This document shows, in pieces, positions 40,969 through 63,842 of a stretch of DNA of 64,000 nt (position 1 is its first letter; each line of letters starts with the position of its first letter). The notes below the pieces were generated by a model that saw only the letters and a list, made by a program, of their open reading frames with translations, did no database searches and was not told where the DNA came from. The translations under genes and the position numbers were made by a program. Source of the DNA: Paramecium tetraurelia (Eukaryota > Ciliophora > Oligohymenophorea > Peniculida > Parameciidae); assembly GCF_000165425.1 (NCBI RefSeq), contig NW_001798955.1:62001-126000 (forward strand), in the 5' to 3' direction.

Positions 40969-43900
40969 ATGTATAAAGAAGAAGCAATTCCATTAATCAC
41001 GTATGATCCTTAAAATAGAAGTAAGTAAATATTCAATAGATAGCTTACAATTTGGCAGAAGAGGCGGCAAAAATGATTAGATCTATAAATAATCCCATTG
41101 CAATTATCTCAGTGGCAGGTTTGTATAGAACAGGAAAATCCTATCTATTGAATAGAATAGTGCTCAACCGTAGCAATGGTTTCGGAGTTGGACCAACAGT
41201 AAATCCATGCACAAAAGGAATGTGGGTTTGGGGTACACCAATTACAGTGGGAAAGACTTCAATTTTGATAGTAGACTCAGAGGGTACAGGAGCTTTGAAT
41301 GACTCAGATGTCAATCACGACACAAGGATATTTGCTCTTGCTGTTTTATTAGCATCATCTTTTGTTTATAATTCAGTTGGAGCTATTGATGAAGGAGCAT
41401 TGGAATCATTGAGTTTTGTAGTCAATTTAACAAAATTCATCTAATTGAGATCAAATGAAGAGCCAGACTCTGAGGAGTATGGAGAGTTTATGCCTCAATT
41501 TTTTTGGGTGTTGAGAGATTTTTCATTGCAATTATTGGATAACAATGGAGACACTCTTACTAGTCATCAGTATTTAGAGAGATCCTTGTAGGAATAACCA
41601 GGATTCTGTGATAGAGTAGAGGAGAAGAACAGAATCAGAAGATTATTGAGAACTTTCTTTCCTGAAAGAGAATGTTTTACATTGGTTAGACCAGTGAATA
41701 ATGAGAGTCAATTACAATAGTTACAATATTAGGATCTCAAATAATTGAGACCAGAATTTTATGAGTAAGCAATATCTTTGAGAAAAATGCTGTTTTCTAA
41801 AGTGAAACCTAAGTAATTTAGAGGTAAAACACTCACAGGTGGAATGTATATCAATTTGATTAAGTAATAGTATCTATTAAATTTAGTTCTTATTTATAAG
41901 CTATGAATAGTGGATGTGTAGCCACAATTGAGAGTTCATGGACATATGTATTTAGAGAAGAATGCAGAAAATTATAAGCAGAAGCATTTGAAATATATGA
42001 AAAATAGATCAAAGAAACTCTGCTTTCCAAACTCCCAACTACTCTCGAAGATGTCAAGGCTTTGAATAAAATATGTAAGAGTAAGGCCATTGCACATATG
42101 GGGAATAATGCTGAGATAATTCCATATGTAAATGAGTTGAAACAAAAGATTAAAGGCAAATTTGAGAATCTCTTGGCTTTTAATGAAACTGAATCTATGG
42201 CATTATGTAAATAATATTTGGTTTAATAATTTGCTCCTATTGATTAAAAATTAAAAATGTCAGAGTACAAAACTTATAGTGAATTTGAAAAGGATTTGAA
42301 ATTATTCAATATCTTTTTAGATGAGCATGGACCTAAAGTGGTAAAGAGAAAGTAATTGTTTGTTGAGTTTATCCAAAAGATGACAACTGAAGGAGCTACA
42401 TTTTTTGTTTAAAACATCCAATAGGATTTTGAAGGTTATAAGAAGTTTTCAGAAGAATAAATCAATAAATTATAAAATGGATTGAACACCATCAAACTAG
42501 ATTCACAAAAATAAGTGGAACAATAAAATTAACAAATTAAATAATTAAATTAATAGAATACTGAAATTACTCAAAAATATAAAACTTAATGTGATGAATT
42601 AGAGAAGTTGAAATAAAAAAACACTTAATCTACTCAATAAATGAAGACACAATTTGAGAATGATTTCAATAAGTTGTAAACTAGTTTTGAAGAGTTAAAA
42701 TAGAAATGTTAGACAGCTGAAGAAGCATTAAAGAGTGCTGAGAGAGAATAATTTATATTGTAGAGTGAATCTAAGAAGAAGGAAGCTCTCTTGGAATAGA
42801 AGATATCACACTTATAGAAGTTGAATGATGAATTCAACAAAAAGGAGAAATAGTATGATTCATCTTTAATGACTTCTAAGAGTGAGTTCTCTGTTAAATT
42901 GAGAGAATTAACAGCATCTTATGAGTAAACCTTGAGTGAAGTAAGAGCATAGAACTTATAACTAAATGAAAAGTTGTAGGAGACTTCAGATTAATTAATG
43001 CAATTGGAAATCAAATATGAAAATTATTACTAAGTTCAAACTCACAAGGAGGAGAGTCAAAGCAATGCTATAAAGAAATTGATGTAATCATAATAAACCT
43101 TACAAGAACAAATCAATATAGAAATCACAAAGAACAAACAACTTCAAGATGATTTGCTATCGACTTAAATGCAAGTAGAATCTAATGAAGTTGGCGAACA
43201 ATACAAACAATAAGTTAAGTAGTTGGAAATCAAATTATAAGAACAAAAGTAAATATAATTAAAGAGTGATGCAATCTTGAATCAATAAATTTAATTCTTG
43301 TAGATGGAGTTAGAAGAGAAGAAAAATACTATTAATGATCTTAAAAAGTCACATGATTCAGCAATGTTGGCTTTGGAGTAATCATAAAATACCTAAAATC
43401 AATAATAGTTGAATAAATCTATCATTGATTTGAAGGAATAGCATATGATTGAAATTAGATAAGCAGAGCATACTTCATAATAGTTGAGAAAACAATTACA
43501 ACAATAGTTGGATTAGTTATAAGGAGAATTACAAGAAGCAGAAATGAGAGGGGATGTATTCTTATAAGAAAAGAACAAATTGTAAGAGGAATTAAGTGAA
43601 AGCTATTAGGTATAGGATGAATTGAAACAGAAGATTCAGTAATAATTGAAGGAGATGGAATCAAATAAGCATACTCAATTTAGAGAGAAAGAATTGAGAA
43701 TGAATTAAAGAATTAAATAATTAGAAGAGGAATTAAGCTAATGCAAATAATAACTCTAAAATACAGGTAATCTAGATAAGAATAGTATTGAGTAATAAGT
43801 AAATGAATTAAGAAATTATTACGAAATGGAGAAGGACGTTTTGGAGAGAAGAATTCATGAAGAAAGATAGAAGGCTGATTAGAAATATTAAATATTATTT

Positions 43901-45876
43901 GAAGAACAAGAGTAGAAGATGAGGGATGAACAATAATAATATGAAGAAGAGATAGAGACATTGAAAGATGAATTGAGAGATTTGGAAATCAATTTGACTA
44001 CTTAATAATAACAATATGATAATGAAATAGAATTAAAGAATAAACAACTTAATTCTATGGAGAATATCTTGAATGAGACTAAAGAATAATTAGTCTAATT
44101 ACAAAACACCTTCTAAACCTAGGTTGAATAAAGAATCAATAATCTTAATGTTACAATTCAATCATTGGAAAGTTAATTGACCAATTAATAATAGAATAAT
44201 CAACAATTAGTTAAGGAAAATCAATTAATGACCTAGAAATTAGAAAATTTGGATGTCAAACTCCAATAGAAATTAAGTGAATTCAAATAATTAAAAGAAG
44301 ACTAAGAAAAGGAGAAGACTCAATTATAAGAGTCATTGTAAGATTTGAGAAGAAAATACACAGCTACATGTGATGAATATTTAGAGAAGAAGATTAATTA
44401 TGAGAAGGCTATAGCATTAAGTGCTTAACAAAATGAATTCTTTGCTAAGAAGGTAGAAGAATTGGAGAGACAATTGGAGAGTTGCAATCTTAAATATGAA
44501 GAGAGAATCAAGATCTAGAAGTAGGAATGGACTTAAGAATTATCAGATAGATTATCAAAATTAAATGAAGAGAAATAATAGATCGAATCTAAAAGTACTT
44601 AACTTAAGAAACAATTAAGAGAAAAAGGAAACCTAGTTTTTGAAGGCACAATAAGATTTGGAGAAAGAAACTGCTTTGTCAACAGAAAAGATTGTATATT
44701 TAGAATAGAAATTAAGAGAACATGAATAACAAACATCTTCAGAGAATAGTAATGCTGCCATGCAATTGAAATAATTAAGAGAGTAATTTAGTCTACTAAA
44801 ATCTAAATCATCTTCAGATATTGAATAATTAAAATCATAATTGACTAATCTTGAATTTGAGAAGTAAGAATTATAGGCCAATTATGAGAAGGATAAGATT
44901 CTATGGGTAATATTATAATTTAATATTTTTAGTAAGGTAAAACATAATTCTTAGAATCATAAAGAGAATCATTGAAATAAGAATTAGCTGATGCTATGAG
45001 GAAGTTTGAAACAACAATTCAAACATTGTAAAGATAGAGAAGTCTGGAGAGAAATGATCATAATCAAGACATTACAGAAATGTTGAATTAGATTGAGAGA
45101 AAGTATTAAGATTAAGTGAAAGATATTTAACAATAACATCAAAAGAAATGTGATGATTATTAAGAAAGAATTGAGAGATTGGAAAAAGAACTTAAGTAAT
45201 CATAAAGTAAAGAATTGTTGGATTAATAATCAAAGATTGGATAACAATTTGAGAGAAAGACAGCAGAATTGTTGGAGAATGAAAAGAGACTATTAAGTAC
45301 AATTGAAGAATTGAAATAGGAAAGAGATCAACGAATACTTGAACATCATGAAGAAGTGGAATAAGAGAAGGAGTATTGGAGAAATAAAATCAATGAATTA
45401 GAAGAAAGATAGAGAGAATCAGATAAAAAATAATCATAACTTATCTTTTATCATGAAAAGGAAAGAGCTAAATGGAGTTAAGAGAAGGATTACATTATGT
45501 AATAAAAGATGGAATTGTAAGATTAATTATCCAGATTGGAGAAAAAGAAAGAATTATTACTCAAAGAAAATGAGAAAATGAAGAATTCTTCAAAGAGTCT
45601 CAGAAAATATAATCCAAATCAAACTCTTAATAATAGTTATTTAAACAAATAAGCAAGTGATAAGAAGATACCTTCATAGGTAAATATTCATTCTAATAAA
45701 TATAGGAAGTAGTTAATATGAGTTATGATGTTACTAAATCATTGGAGGATAAGGATCCAAGTTAAAAGGAAAATCTATCCACATCAACCACCTTTGGTAG
45801 TTTCAAAAAATATTATTAAATGATGAACTCGAAACAAGTCAGTCCAAGTAAAACTAAAGAGATTTCAGATATTTGA
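40969..45876 (+). CDS. Giant guanylate-binding-protein-like GTPase with long coiled coil
   Basis: 1,594 residues. The N-terminal ~330 form a GBP/atlastin-type large GTPase: P-loop GLYRTGKSYLLN near residue 43, G3 in LIVDSEGTGAL, and the GBP-specific WVLRDF in place of the usual NKxD motif. A helical domain begins MNSGCVATIESSW. The remaining ~1,000 residues are an almost unbroken Gln/Glu/Lys/Leu coiled coil, several times longer than the tail of animal GBPs. Five introns (23 nt at 41021, 23 nt at 41864, 25 nt at 44595, 26 nt at 44907, 26 nt at 45680) leave an exact multiple of three. Members of this family self-assemble on membranes on GTP hydrolysis. No CaaX end or transmembrane helix is visible, so a membrane-fusion role is not shown. 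Confidence 0.92.
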
Positions 45877-58980: not shown

Positions 58981-60082
<1,102 letters not shown>

Positions 60083-60944: not shown

Positions 60945-63842
60945 TCATTCTAAGCCTAATATCCAATTTAGTGTATTCAACATTTATTTACATAAATGAT
61001 CGTTATTTCCAATAATTTATATTGTACATTGCATATTCGGTAATACTATAAATTTGATCATGTAATTTTAATTAACATTTGTCAATTCAAAAATGCCACC
61101 TAAATTAATGTATATTATTACAAAGTTTATAAGTGATGTATTTTAATTATCTATCATTAAAATAATCCAATTATTGATCCTAAAATTATTGATATGAATT
61201 GAATTCACATAACTTTGGAAATATTCTAAATTCATTTTAAGTTTTTACTTTTTTAAATAATTTCCTGTTTTTACAATTTTTGGATTCAACAAAAATGTAT
61301 CTCCTCTGAAAATTTATTATTTCTTCTATCTCCATTTTGTTCTAAAGACTTATAAACTTATATCCTTGAAATCCATAAAGGAGACTAATGTTGTTGTTAA
61401 AAAGAAGTTTGATGTTATCTATTTGTTAGCCCACTCAGCTATTAATAAATAAATATTAAAAGTTACCTGAAAATACTACATTCACCAATCTATAATTTTC
61501 AAACTATTTAAAAATTCCTATTACTTCTTATTAAACTTATTGACCTGGTTCAATTTTATCAGGAATCTTATCTGGCTTTAGCCACATCGAAAATTCTTCA
61601 AATATCATAATTTAAATTACGTTTATTATCTCCTTCGAATTACATCTTGCACCTTTCGAAATTTGATTGGGTCTTATTTCCAATATATAAAATTAACTTT
61701 AAATAGTTTTTCTCCTTCAAAGGAACATATTGTAATGCTTATTTTATTCCTACTTAAAGCTAAGGGGAATTTACTAATGCAGCTTTACCCTTTATAGTAG
61801 CGAGTTTAAAACGCTTCTTTTAAGATTCTGATAAACCATATGTATGTAATAACTCAAATTAGGAATTGTCATATTTAGCATACTTTCCTGTATACTACTT
61901 GATTGGTATCTATTGATCCATTTTCAAAGGGAAATATTATTAAGTTAAAGTGGATTAGCTTAATCCATCAAAATTTTCATCAAACTCCTTCTTTTTTGCT
62001 ATATTAGAGTTTAAATGATTCATAGGAGGTTATTCTCTTTTATTTTCTCCATGCAGATAATTTTAGTTTGGCATTTCTAATAAATTATTATTTTTTTCAA
62101 ATTAATTAGCATTAGCTTATTTTTATTGATTTTATTAGTCAAAAGTAGAATAAATGTAGTTCTAATTAATATTATTTTACTATTAGTTTTACTTTTATTA
62201 TTAAAATGATGATTACTAATATTATTATTACTAATATTACTAAAATTACTACTATTATTATTATTATTATTATTATTATTACTGTTAATTTACATATGAT
62301 CCTAATTTTGTTGGTGTCATGTATTACTAATTATCTGGATTGGGAGTTTGAAATTAATTGTTCCAATAATCCTCAATTTCTTTTTATTTTTTCTATTTTT
62401 ATAATTATTCTTCAGCTTCTAATCTATTTTATTCTTATTTTAGTTATTCTAGTTTTAATTGCTCTCTTTTCTTCTCTTCTAATCTTATTTATTCTTACTT
62501 AATTTATTCCTATCTAATTTATTCTTATTTCTCTTGCTCCTTTCTTTCATTCTCCCTTTTTTATTCTTCAATCCTCAACTATTCCTACTTAATTTACTCT
62601 TCTCTAATTTTGGCTAATCTTAATTCTTCTTCTTACTATCTCTTAATTTCTTCTTATTTTTTTTATTCTTCAATTTATTTCTATTATATTTATGAATGTT
62701 ATTATTGTATTTTTGATTCTTCGATAGCTCTTCTTAGCATCTCATCTTCATTTTAAAATTATGAATATTGTTATTACTATAAATTTTGTTACTTTAATTC
62801 TTTCTATTATTTAGGAGGTGGGTAATCAAAATCCTTATTTTATATTTTCTAAATATGAGCTAATGTCTTCTTTTTCAATGAATTATAAGCTCCTGGAGTA
62901 CATTCCTTTTCAAGATAACCATAATAATATTTTTAGAATTTCTATACAAAATCTTTAAGGGAATAGAGTTCTGCTAGTTCATCCTCATTTAAAACGCCAT
63001 CATACTGTTCTGCTTTACGGATGAGATTTTCAAACGACTTTTCCATTACATTCATAGATTCACTATAAGTAACTAAAACTTCATTTATGTATCCCATATC
63101 AGAATCATTAACCAAGGTTTCATTAATCATCTCAATGTCTTATTAAATTGCCTATTTTCTTTGATCTTAAGTAGGATATTTAGTTTACTTAGTTAAAGCA
63201 TGGTTTCATCCCTTTATTTATTATTATCAAGTTGTTTTGAAATAGGTTCTTGGGAAGCCTTATTAGGATCAAATGGCAAAATGAGACTTGATGAAGGTGG
63301 GAATTTAACCTAATATTTTGTATAAGGCATATACTCCCATTTAAAGTAATTCGTCATATTGGATTTTGAATTTAGTGGGTGAACCTTTTGAATCTTTTGG
63401 AAATTTGGTGGCAAGATGTTCAACCAATTCAAGGGCCAAGTTTAAGAATTCAACACTTGATTGGGGATCTAAATTGATATTGGATAGAACCTTATCCTTG
63501 AAATAAATCAGCACCGCGATTGGGATTGCCATCCCCTAATTTATGAGTACAGATATTTCCAATGAATGTCAACAAAGGTCTAGTTTAAATGTATTTGTTT
63601 ATAAATTTGGCAGATTTGATAACGATTGCATCTTTGATAAGCTAAGATATGATTGATAATACTCTCAAGATTAATAATTTCCTCAAGGGTGGTTCATTTG
63701 AATTGAAAACATGGAGAGCATATTCAATGGTGGCATCAATTAATTCAGGGTCATTAGCATGAAGTTTGTCAATGATTTTTTATGCATTTCTATTGTAGGC
63801 AGCTTTGTCTTGAGTGGCAGTTTGTATTTATATTTGTTGCAT
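60945..63842 (-). CDS. GGA-like adaptor: VHS + GAT + polyQ hinge + alpha-adaptin-type appendage
   Basis: 907 residues, eight exons (introns 22 nt at 63469, 25 nt at 63310, 23 nt at 63166, 25 nt at 61596, 28 nt at 61439, 29 nt at 61180, 22 nt at 61100), exactly divisible by three. Residues ~1-165 form a VHS domain ending in the hallmark QYDELLQMGVKFPP. Residues ~205-295 (IEMINETLVNDSD... NVMEKSFENLI ... LNEDELAELYSLKDFV) look like a GAT helical bundle. A Glu/Lys/Gln-rich hinge with a polyQ tract follows. Residues ~650-907 match the two-lobed alpha-adaptin appendage: sandwich NSPQLQVGIKQAL, LYIGNKTQSNFERC, KIEPGQQVQQEVIGIF, and platform FRTKWRQKKQQIF, GIFELTNVNQNYMIKF, MQCTIQIIGNND. VHS/GAT proteins bind sorting signals, Arf and ubiquitin, and alpha appendages recruit endocytic accessory proteins. 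It probably acts in clathrin-coated sorting. Confidence 0.87.
62246..62283 (-). repeat. TAA triplet repeat encoding polyglutamine
   Basis: Forward strand TTA/ATT triplet run. On the coding strand it reads as about twelve consecutive TAA/TAG codons, all Gln in this code, inside the adaptor hinge. More interrupted Gln codons continue to about 62.10 kb. Confidence 0.85.

Follow-up and report, generated by a model that had tools for sequence, protein, structure and literature searches.

Does the gene on the minus strand near the end of this 64,000-nucleotide stretch of Paramecium tetraurelia DNA (the window) encode one adaptor chain that joins a VHS-GAT front to an AP-2 alpha-type ear, and if so, to which kind of adaptor does it belong? 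We consider it probable that the product of the gene is a single-chain adaptor of the KAE/KIC4 kind, in which a VHS-like domain, a predicted GAT-like bundle, a UIM-like stretch and a hinge precede an alpha-type ear (Table 1). Read under the ciliate code, in which TAA and TAG specify glutamine, the minus strand gives eight exons that encode 909 residues plus a stop, separated by seven introns of 22, 25, 23, 25, 28, 23 and 22 nt in order. Both this code and the very short introns resemble those of Paramecium. This reading bears out the coordinates, the seven introns and the single spliced frame of the first-pass annotation, and corrects its total of 908 codons to 910. A codon-usage gene finder trained on the window itself reproduced the start and all but one of the seven introns; it read through intron 6 and came to an early end at 61082.

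Table 1. Features of the window gene, in window positions and residues of the predicted protein
Feature	Position	Strand	Details	Basis
Whole gene	60945..63842	-	start codon at 63842; stop at 60947-60945; exons 63842-63491, 63468-63335, 63309-63189, 63165-61621, 61595-61467, 61438-61249, 61225-61122, 61099-60945	
VHS-like (ENTH/VHS superfamily) front	63295..63842	-	residues 1-167, exons 1-3	hhalign, PDB 1vdy
GAT-like helix bundle (predicted)	62777..63163	-	about residues 204-322 (modelled 204-332)	AlphaFold, Foldseek
UIM-like stretch	62714..62746	-	residues 343-353 (DEMLRRAIEES)	Pfam UIM, kept in the C211 duplicate
Q/E/K-rich hinge	61898..62713	-	residues 354-625, coiled-coil-like then low complexity (by eye)	gene reading
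AP-2 alpha-type ear (sandwich then platform)	60948..61897	-	residues 626-909, exons 4-8	PDB profile search, hhalign, held-out family profile

The 69-Mb assembly (231 contigs) searched for relatives holds a duplicate of the gene at C211:86951-84111, with 75% identity across 916 aligned positions. Unguided gene finding got no further than the third intron of this duplicate, whereas an alignment guided by the window protein recovered all seven (22, 25, 23, 24, 29, 23 and 22 nt), each with the same residue place and phase as in the window gene (7/7). A neighbouring PP2A-like phosphatase gene is also common to the two loci (90.6% DNA identity over 1205 bases). Because the syntenic duplicate has the same seven intron places and phases, we read the window sequence as a single gene rather than two joined. 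Exon 4, which runs from the GAT-like region through the hinge into the ear, contains no in-frame TGA in 514 codons, an outcome that none of 2000 shuffles matched. A mistaken fusion of two adjacent genes, which the first-pass annotation had also discounted, is ruled out by the synteny, the seven shared introns and an exon 4 frame that stays open through hinge and ear.

Between the window gene and its duplicate, dN/dS is 0.19 for the VHS-like part, 0.10 for the GAT-like part, 0.16 for the hinge, 0.06 for the sandwich lobe and 0.11 for the platform lobe (0.13 overall); the short linker and the UIM stretch, each saturated at synonymous sites, yielded no ratio of their own. The VHS-like front, the predicted GAT-like bundle, the UIM-like stretch, the hinge and the alpha-type ear are kept together under purifying selection. 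As for the neighbours in the window, the phosphatase gene (identified by eye at 58981-60082, plus strand) lies tail-to-tail with the adaptor gene and is conserved beside the C211 duplicate, and a large gene at 40969-44975 (plus strand) starts, by eye, like a GBP/atlastin-type GTPase.

The ear is of the AP-2 alpha type, as the first-pass reading of a two-lobed alpha-adaptin appendage had it. When a profile of seven family ears was run against all PDB sequences (up to E 10), all seven matches were AP-2 alpha (best E 2.9e-6). These matches take in the sandwich and reach the beginning of the platform; the rest of the platform is traced in the window ear by alignment only, and the family ear aligns through into the platform lobe. 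With hhalign, the family ear scored 48.7 against mouse alpha (E 1.5e-6; shuffle maximum 18.4, 0/60 reaching the score), compared with 20.0 against the genome's own gamma ear (maximum 17.0, 0/60) and 18.3 against its own beta ear (maximum 19.1, 1/60), each template being a single sequence and the gamma template a gene-finder model that is probably out of frame near its end. Because the gamma template probably leaves the frame there, the PDB search is the better control between alpha and gamma. A beta ear, whose score is reached by one of 60 shuffles, and a gamma ear, at 20.0 against 48.7 for alpha, are both rejected, the PDB profile matching alpha only.

Single-sequence searches are less sensitive to this ear. 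Pfam Alpha_adaptinC2 matches the window ear piece at E 0.012 (16.3 bits, cut-off 27.6) and appears at E<=1 in five of the seven family ears scanned, the window ear included (best 0.00096); Pfam Alpha_adaptin_C matches nowhere across the genome, which proves nothing about the presence of an ear. The profile search that had been proposed for the C-terminal part falls below the cut-off when made with a single sequence, and is significant for alpha when made with the family ear profile. In alignment with mouse alpha-C, the window ear keeps K727, Q782 and W840, and has Y at F740 and R at the platform residue F837; for R905, E907 and R916, one of the two alignments made shows a change and the other allows no comparison. 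Motif binding by the appendage is assigned to residues of this set. The sandwich site appears more likely to be intact than the platform site, and classical DPF/DPW binding may be lost, because F837 and, in one alignment, R905, E907 and R916 are changed.

Relatives were found by searching the genome with both ends of the window protein and with the front of one relative. Nine gene models were read, namely the window gene and those on C211, C183, C12, C161, C163, C149, C180 (75 kb) and C78 (166 kb), and they fall into five diverged classes. Held-out profiles find the ear in all five classes (window 5.4e-38, over residues 626-907; C183 2.7e-7; C163 1.8e-29; C180 6.5e-8; C78 6.7e-37) and the front in four (best E 1e-19, 9e-19, 7.8e-15 and 2.1e-8); the front profile did not find a front in C78. 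The best of 38 background proteins was in both searches the genome's AP-2 alpha (front E 24, ear E 2.9). Among the matches listed in the held-out search (best six per class), the C12 ear and the C180 front do not appear, and the C149 ear, missed by the held-out profile, is taken as an ear from its match to C180 (C180b). C183 and C12 match at both ends, as do C149 and C180. Trees of the fronts (8 rows) and of the ears (9 rows) give no firm placement of the window pair among the classes. Three further front matches lie on C217, C190 and C155, the last two yielding no model; the model at C217:30030-33353 has a VHS-like front and ends after 364 residues without an ear.

Two apicomplexan proteins offer the closest comparison. 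Toxoplasma KAE (TGME49_272600), the K13 complex-associated alpha-ear protein, has an alpha ear that binds Eps15L via WxxF and, in the portions of the paper available, no other conserved domain except coiled-coil motifs (Koreny et al. 2023, PMC10105704). The window protein is like KAE, as so described, in its C-terminal AP-2 alpha-type ear, its lack of an adaptin trunk and its large size; unlike KAE, it has a VHS-like front and a predicted GAT-like bundle, and it belongs to a family of several classes. K13, the presumed partner of KAE, is apparently absent from ciliates. Plasmodium KIC4, of which TgKAE is named as a homologue, has a VHS domain, a GAT domain and an adaptin appendage with a beta-type platform, an order for which InterPro gave the authors no second example, and its loss caused no detectable endocytosis defect in their assays (Schmidt et al. 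2023, PMC10718435). Compared by published description, KIC4 has the order VHS, GAT, hinge and two-lobed adaptin ear, which the window protein parallels with a VHS-like and a predicted GAT-like part; the KIC4 platform is classed as beta-adaptin-like whereas the window ear matches alpha, and the UIM-like stretch of the window protein has no counterpart mentioned in the available KIC4 text (PMC10718435).

The architecture is not new as a kind: KIC4 has the order and KAE has the ear. The earlier proposal holds in placing a VHS-like and GAT-like front and an alpha-type ear in one gene, and a reading of the combination as unprecedented is not supported. We would class the gene with the KAE/KIC4 kind, as a ciliate representative likened to both proteins by their published descriptions, and not as a GGA. 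In the open-access literature we found no description of a VHS or GAT domain in a ciliate alpha-ear protein. The AP-2 alpha subunit itself has the same ear type as the window protein, which is without the adaptin trunk: none of the 42 Adaptin_N matches listed in the genome falls at the window gene.

A fusion peculiar to ciliates, in which a VHS-GAT protein gained an alpha ear independently and is not orthologous to KAE or KIC4, would fit the five diverged classes in this genome; our comparison with KAE and KIC4 also goes by published description rather than by sequence, and the text available for those proteins mentions no UIM. We nevertheless think such a separate origin unlikely, given that Koreny et al. 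state, in the part of their paper available, that the split between AP-2 alpha and KAE is present in all alveolates (PMC10105704), and that KIC4, as described, has the same unusual order, for which a single ancient fusion is the simpler account. In the genome studied here, the AP-2 alpha gene lies at C160:277024-280587, and Pfam finds no ear in its C-terminus. Its ear scores 32.7 in single-sequence hhalign against mouse alpha, and the window ear 32.9; because the two score alike, our data do not bring out the published split, in which the AP-2 alpha ear is degenerate.

The VHS-like nature of the front has good but not final support, drawn from family profiles. Pfam finds no family at E<=1 in the whole window protein as a single sequence, no VHS and no GAT in its pieces (for the front only unrelated families at chance level, the best being SIL1 at E 0.017), and no VHS or GAT in six family fronts. 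Against known VHS domains, a seven-member front profile scored 39.3 in hhalign (prob 84, E 7.6e-6), compared with 16.3 for the best of 60 column shuffles, and a nine-member profile 38.7 against 16.4. The match is carried mainly by the last ~42 columns, that is, the last two helices, ending in the pattern Y..L...G..FP; with these columns removed it is not significant (3/40 shuffles reach the score). A PDB search with the nine fronts placed 1vdy, which we take to be an Arabidopsis protein, second of 69 (E 0.0065), over the N-terminal part, and the 1vdy fragment is itself matched by Pfam VHS at 1.2e-5 (25.6 bits, cut-off 29.8) and by ENTH at 0.038. The top match was a designed cytochrome trimer (E 0.0053) with no stretch passing alone; most of the best 60 of the 69 rows were cytochrome c peroxidases near E 1, and no TOM1, STAM, HRS or GGA chain was among those 60. 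A PDB search with a joint VHS-GAT profile gave 0.26 at best, to an unrelated protein. The VHS domain first proposed is thus supported as VHS-like by the family profile (0/60 shuffles), while single-sequence Pfam finds none. The absence of a significant VHS or appendage match had been named at the outset as a result that would count against the whole reading; single-sequence Pfam gives that result, and the family profiles reverse it for the ear and, less fully, for the VHS-like front.

The block that follows resembles the GAT domain of GGA1, without statistical significance, which is suggestive of a GAT-like bundle. AlphaFold, run on residues 204-332 as a single sequence, predicts helices at 2-17, 21-53, 60-87, 90-108 and 117-128 (numbered within the piece) with a mean pLDDT of 77, the other four models reaching 60-67. 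None of the 154 Foldseek matches of this model has E<=0.001. Among the best 50 of the 154 rows, the leader by probability (0.63) and by TM-score (0.53/0.60) is the GGA1 GAT domain 1o3x, at E 2.1 and rank 14 by E-value; other helix bundles come near it, such as syntaxin 12, at TM 0.50/0.49, and a BAG domain from a plant, at 0.50/0.39. A family GAT sequence profile scored 16.1 against a shuffle maximum of 14.8 (0/60), but with E 0.062, and a profile of the window pair alone was beaten by 28 of 40 shuffles. Place and predicted fold are suggestive of the GAT domain of the first-pass annotation; the sequence profile and Pfam are not significant.

With Pfam finding neither VHS nor GAT, the VHS signal confined to two helices and the GAT match not significant, the front might instead be an ENTH-type or other helical scaffold, functionally not a VHS-GAT unit, leaving only the ear meaningful. 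KAE lacks other conserved domains in the text cited above (PMC10105704), and epsins, which carry ENTH, are described as expanded in Tetrahymena and Paramecium in the available part of a 2025 paper (PMC12517565), both of which would suit such a front. This seems to us improbable, and somewhat more so than a separate ciliate fusion, in view of the VHS score that no shuffle of 60 reached, the 1vdy fragment that stands nearer to VHS (below the cut-off) than to ENTH, and the lead of GGA1 GAT by probability and TM-score among those best 50 Foldseek rows.

The UIM-like stretch was matched by Pfam UIM at E 0.0014 in a 41-aa piece of the window protein (18.7 bits, cut-off 21). Of the nine family proteins, only the window protein and the C211 duplicate have its pattern. 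By chance the pattern arises in 1 of 20000 shuffles of the window hinge and 10 of 20000 of the C211 hinge, and in 4 and 5 of 5000 shuffles of the whole window and C211 proteins, respectively. The clathrin-box pattern L[LIVMF]x[LIVMF][DE] is absent from the window protein and from C211. Because both are without it, direct clathrin binding is not suggested, and the link to clathrin adaptors made in the first-pass annotation finds no support.

GGA proteins of animals and fungi, whose order of VHS, GAT, hinge and ear the window protein parallels with a VHS-like and a predicted GAT-like part, carry a single-lobed gamma ear and clathrin boxes; the window protein, unlike them, has an alpha-type ear by PDB profile and hhalign, and no clathrin box. 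A true GGA with an ear derived by divergence from a gamma ear, to which the identical order and a gamma-ear score just above the shuffles might point, is very improbable, given the alignment of the family ear into the platform lobe, its alpha score, its PDB matches to alpha only and the missing clathrin box. Of the two readings first offered, a lineage-specific monomeric clathrin adaptor or a convergent GGA, convergence with the opisthokont GGA through a separate ear fusion would be the better. TOM1-like proteins have a VHS-GAT front, which the VHS-like and predicted GAT-like front of the window protein resembles, and the ear is present only in the latter. The genome has two such TOM1-like genes (C190:53488-51505 and C180:422483-424448), with no ear in either model; in the C190 copy, Pfam VHS (50.3 bits) and GAT (45.2 bits) are both above cut-off. 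The hinge of this pair contains, by eye, a clathrin-box-like LFEVD.

As an adaptor of the KAE/KIC4 kind, the protein is most likely, by prediction from its domains, an endocytic or endosomal scaffold, with ubiquitinated cargo bound in front and motif-bearing partners behind. We suspect that the VHS, GAT and UIM parts would bind ubiquitinated cargo together with partners at endosomes or the plasma membrane, and that a flexible hinge would let the ear reach out. The sandwich lobe may recruit accessory proteins with WxxF-type short motifs, in the way that Eps15L is bound by the KAE ear in Toxoplasma. The protein could in this way supply alpha-ear docking sites by itself, at coated pits or endosomes and alongside the AP-2 complex. 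In this Paramecium the adaptor has multiplied into several classes.

From the perspective of adaptor evolution, we tentatively propose a scenario that is possible, if not quite probable, in which adaptin ears joined VHS-GAT proteins on two occasions: a gamma ear was gained in the line of animals and fungi (GGA), and an alpha ear prior to the divergence of ciliates and myzozoans (KAE/KIC4). The alveolate form would then have radiated in ciliates, apparently without K13, to give five or more classes, of which one has a UIM, and an ancestral single-chain endocytic adaptor would later have been tied to K13 by myzozoans. The available text of a 2012 survey that included Tetrahymena credits Chromista with ENTHA proteins only and no VHS (De Craene et al. 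2012, PMC3473312). A family with the KIC4 order in ciliates, if true, would link KIC4 with its unique order, KAE with its ear alone and this survey, as far as the available texts describe them (PMC10718435, PMC10105704, PMC3473312). It would also offer free-living and tractable Paramecium-like cells as a model in which to study a protein that belongs to the artemisinin-linked K13 compartment.

Tandem EH matches, as in Eps15, occur in four genes of the genome, one of which was read. It has a single WxxF, which by eye lies inside the first EH domain, and this lone motif would neither prove nor exclude an ear contact of the Toxoplasma type. The gene (C10:91730-96234) has two EH domains and long coiled coils, and the first ~230 residues of its model may belong to another gene.
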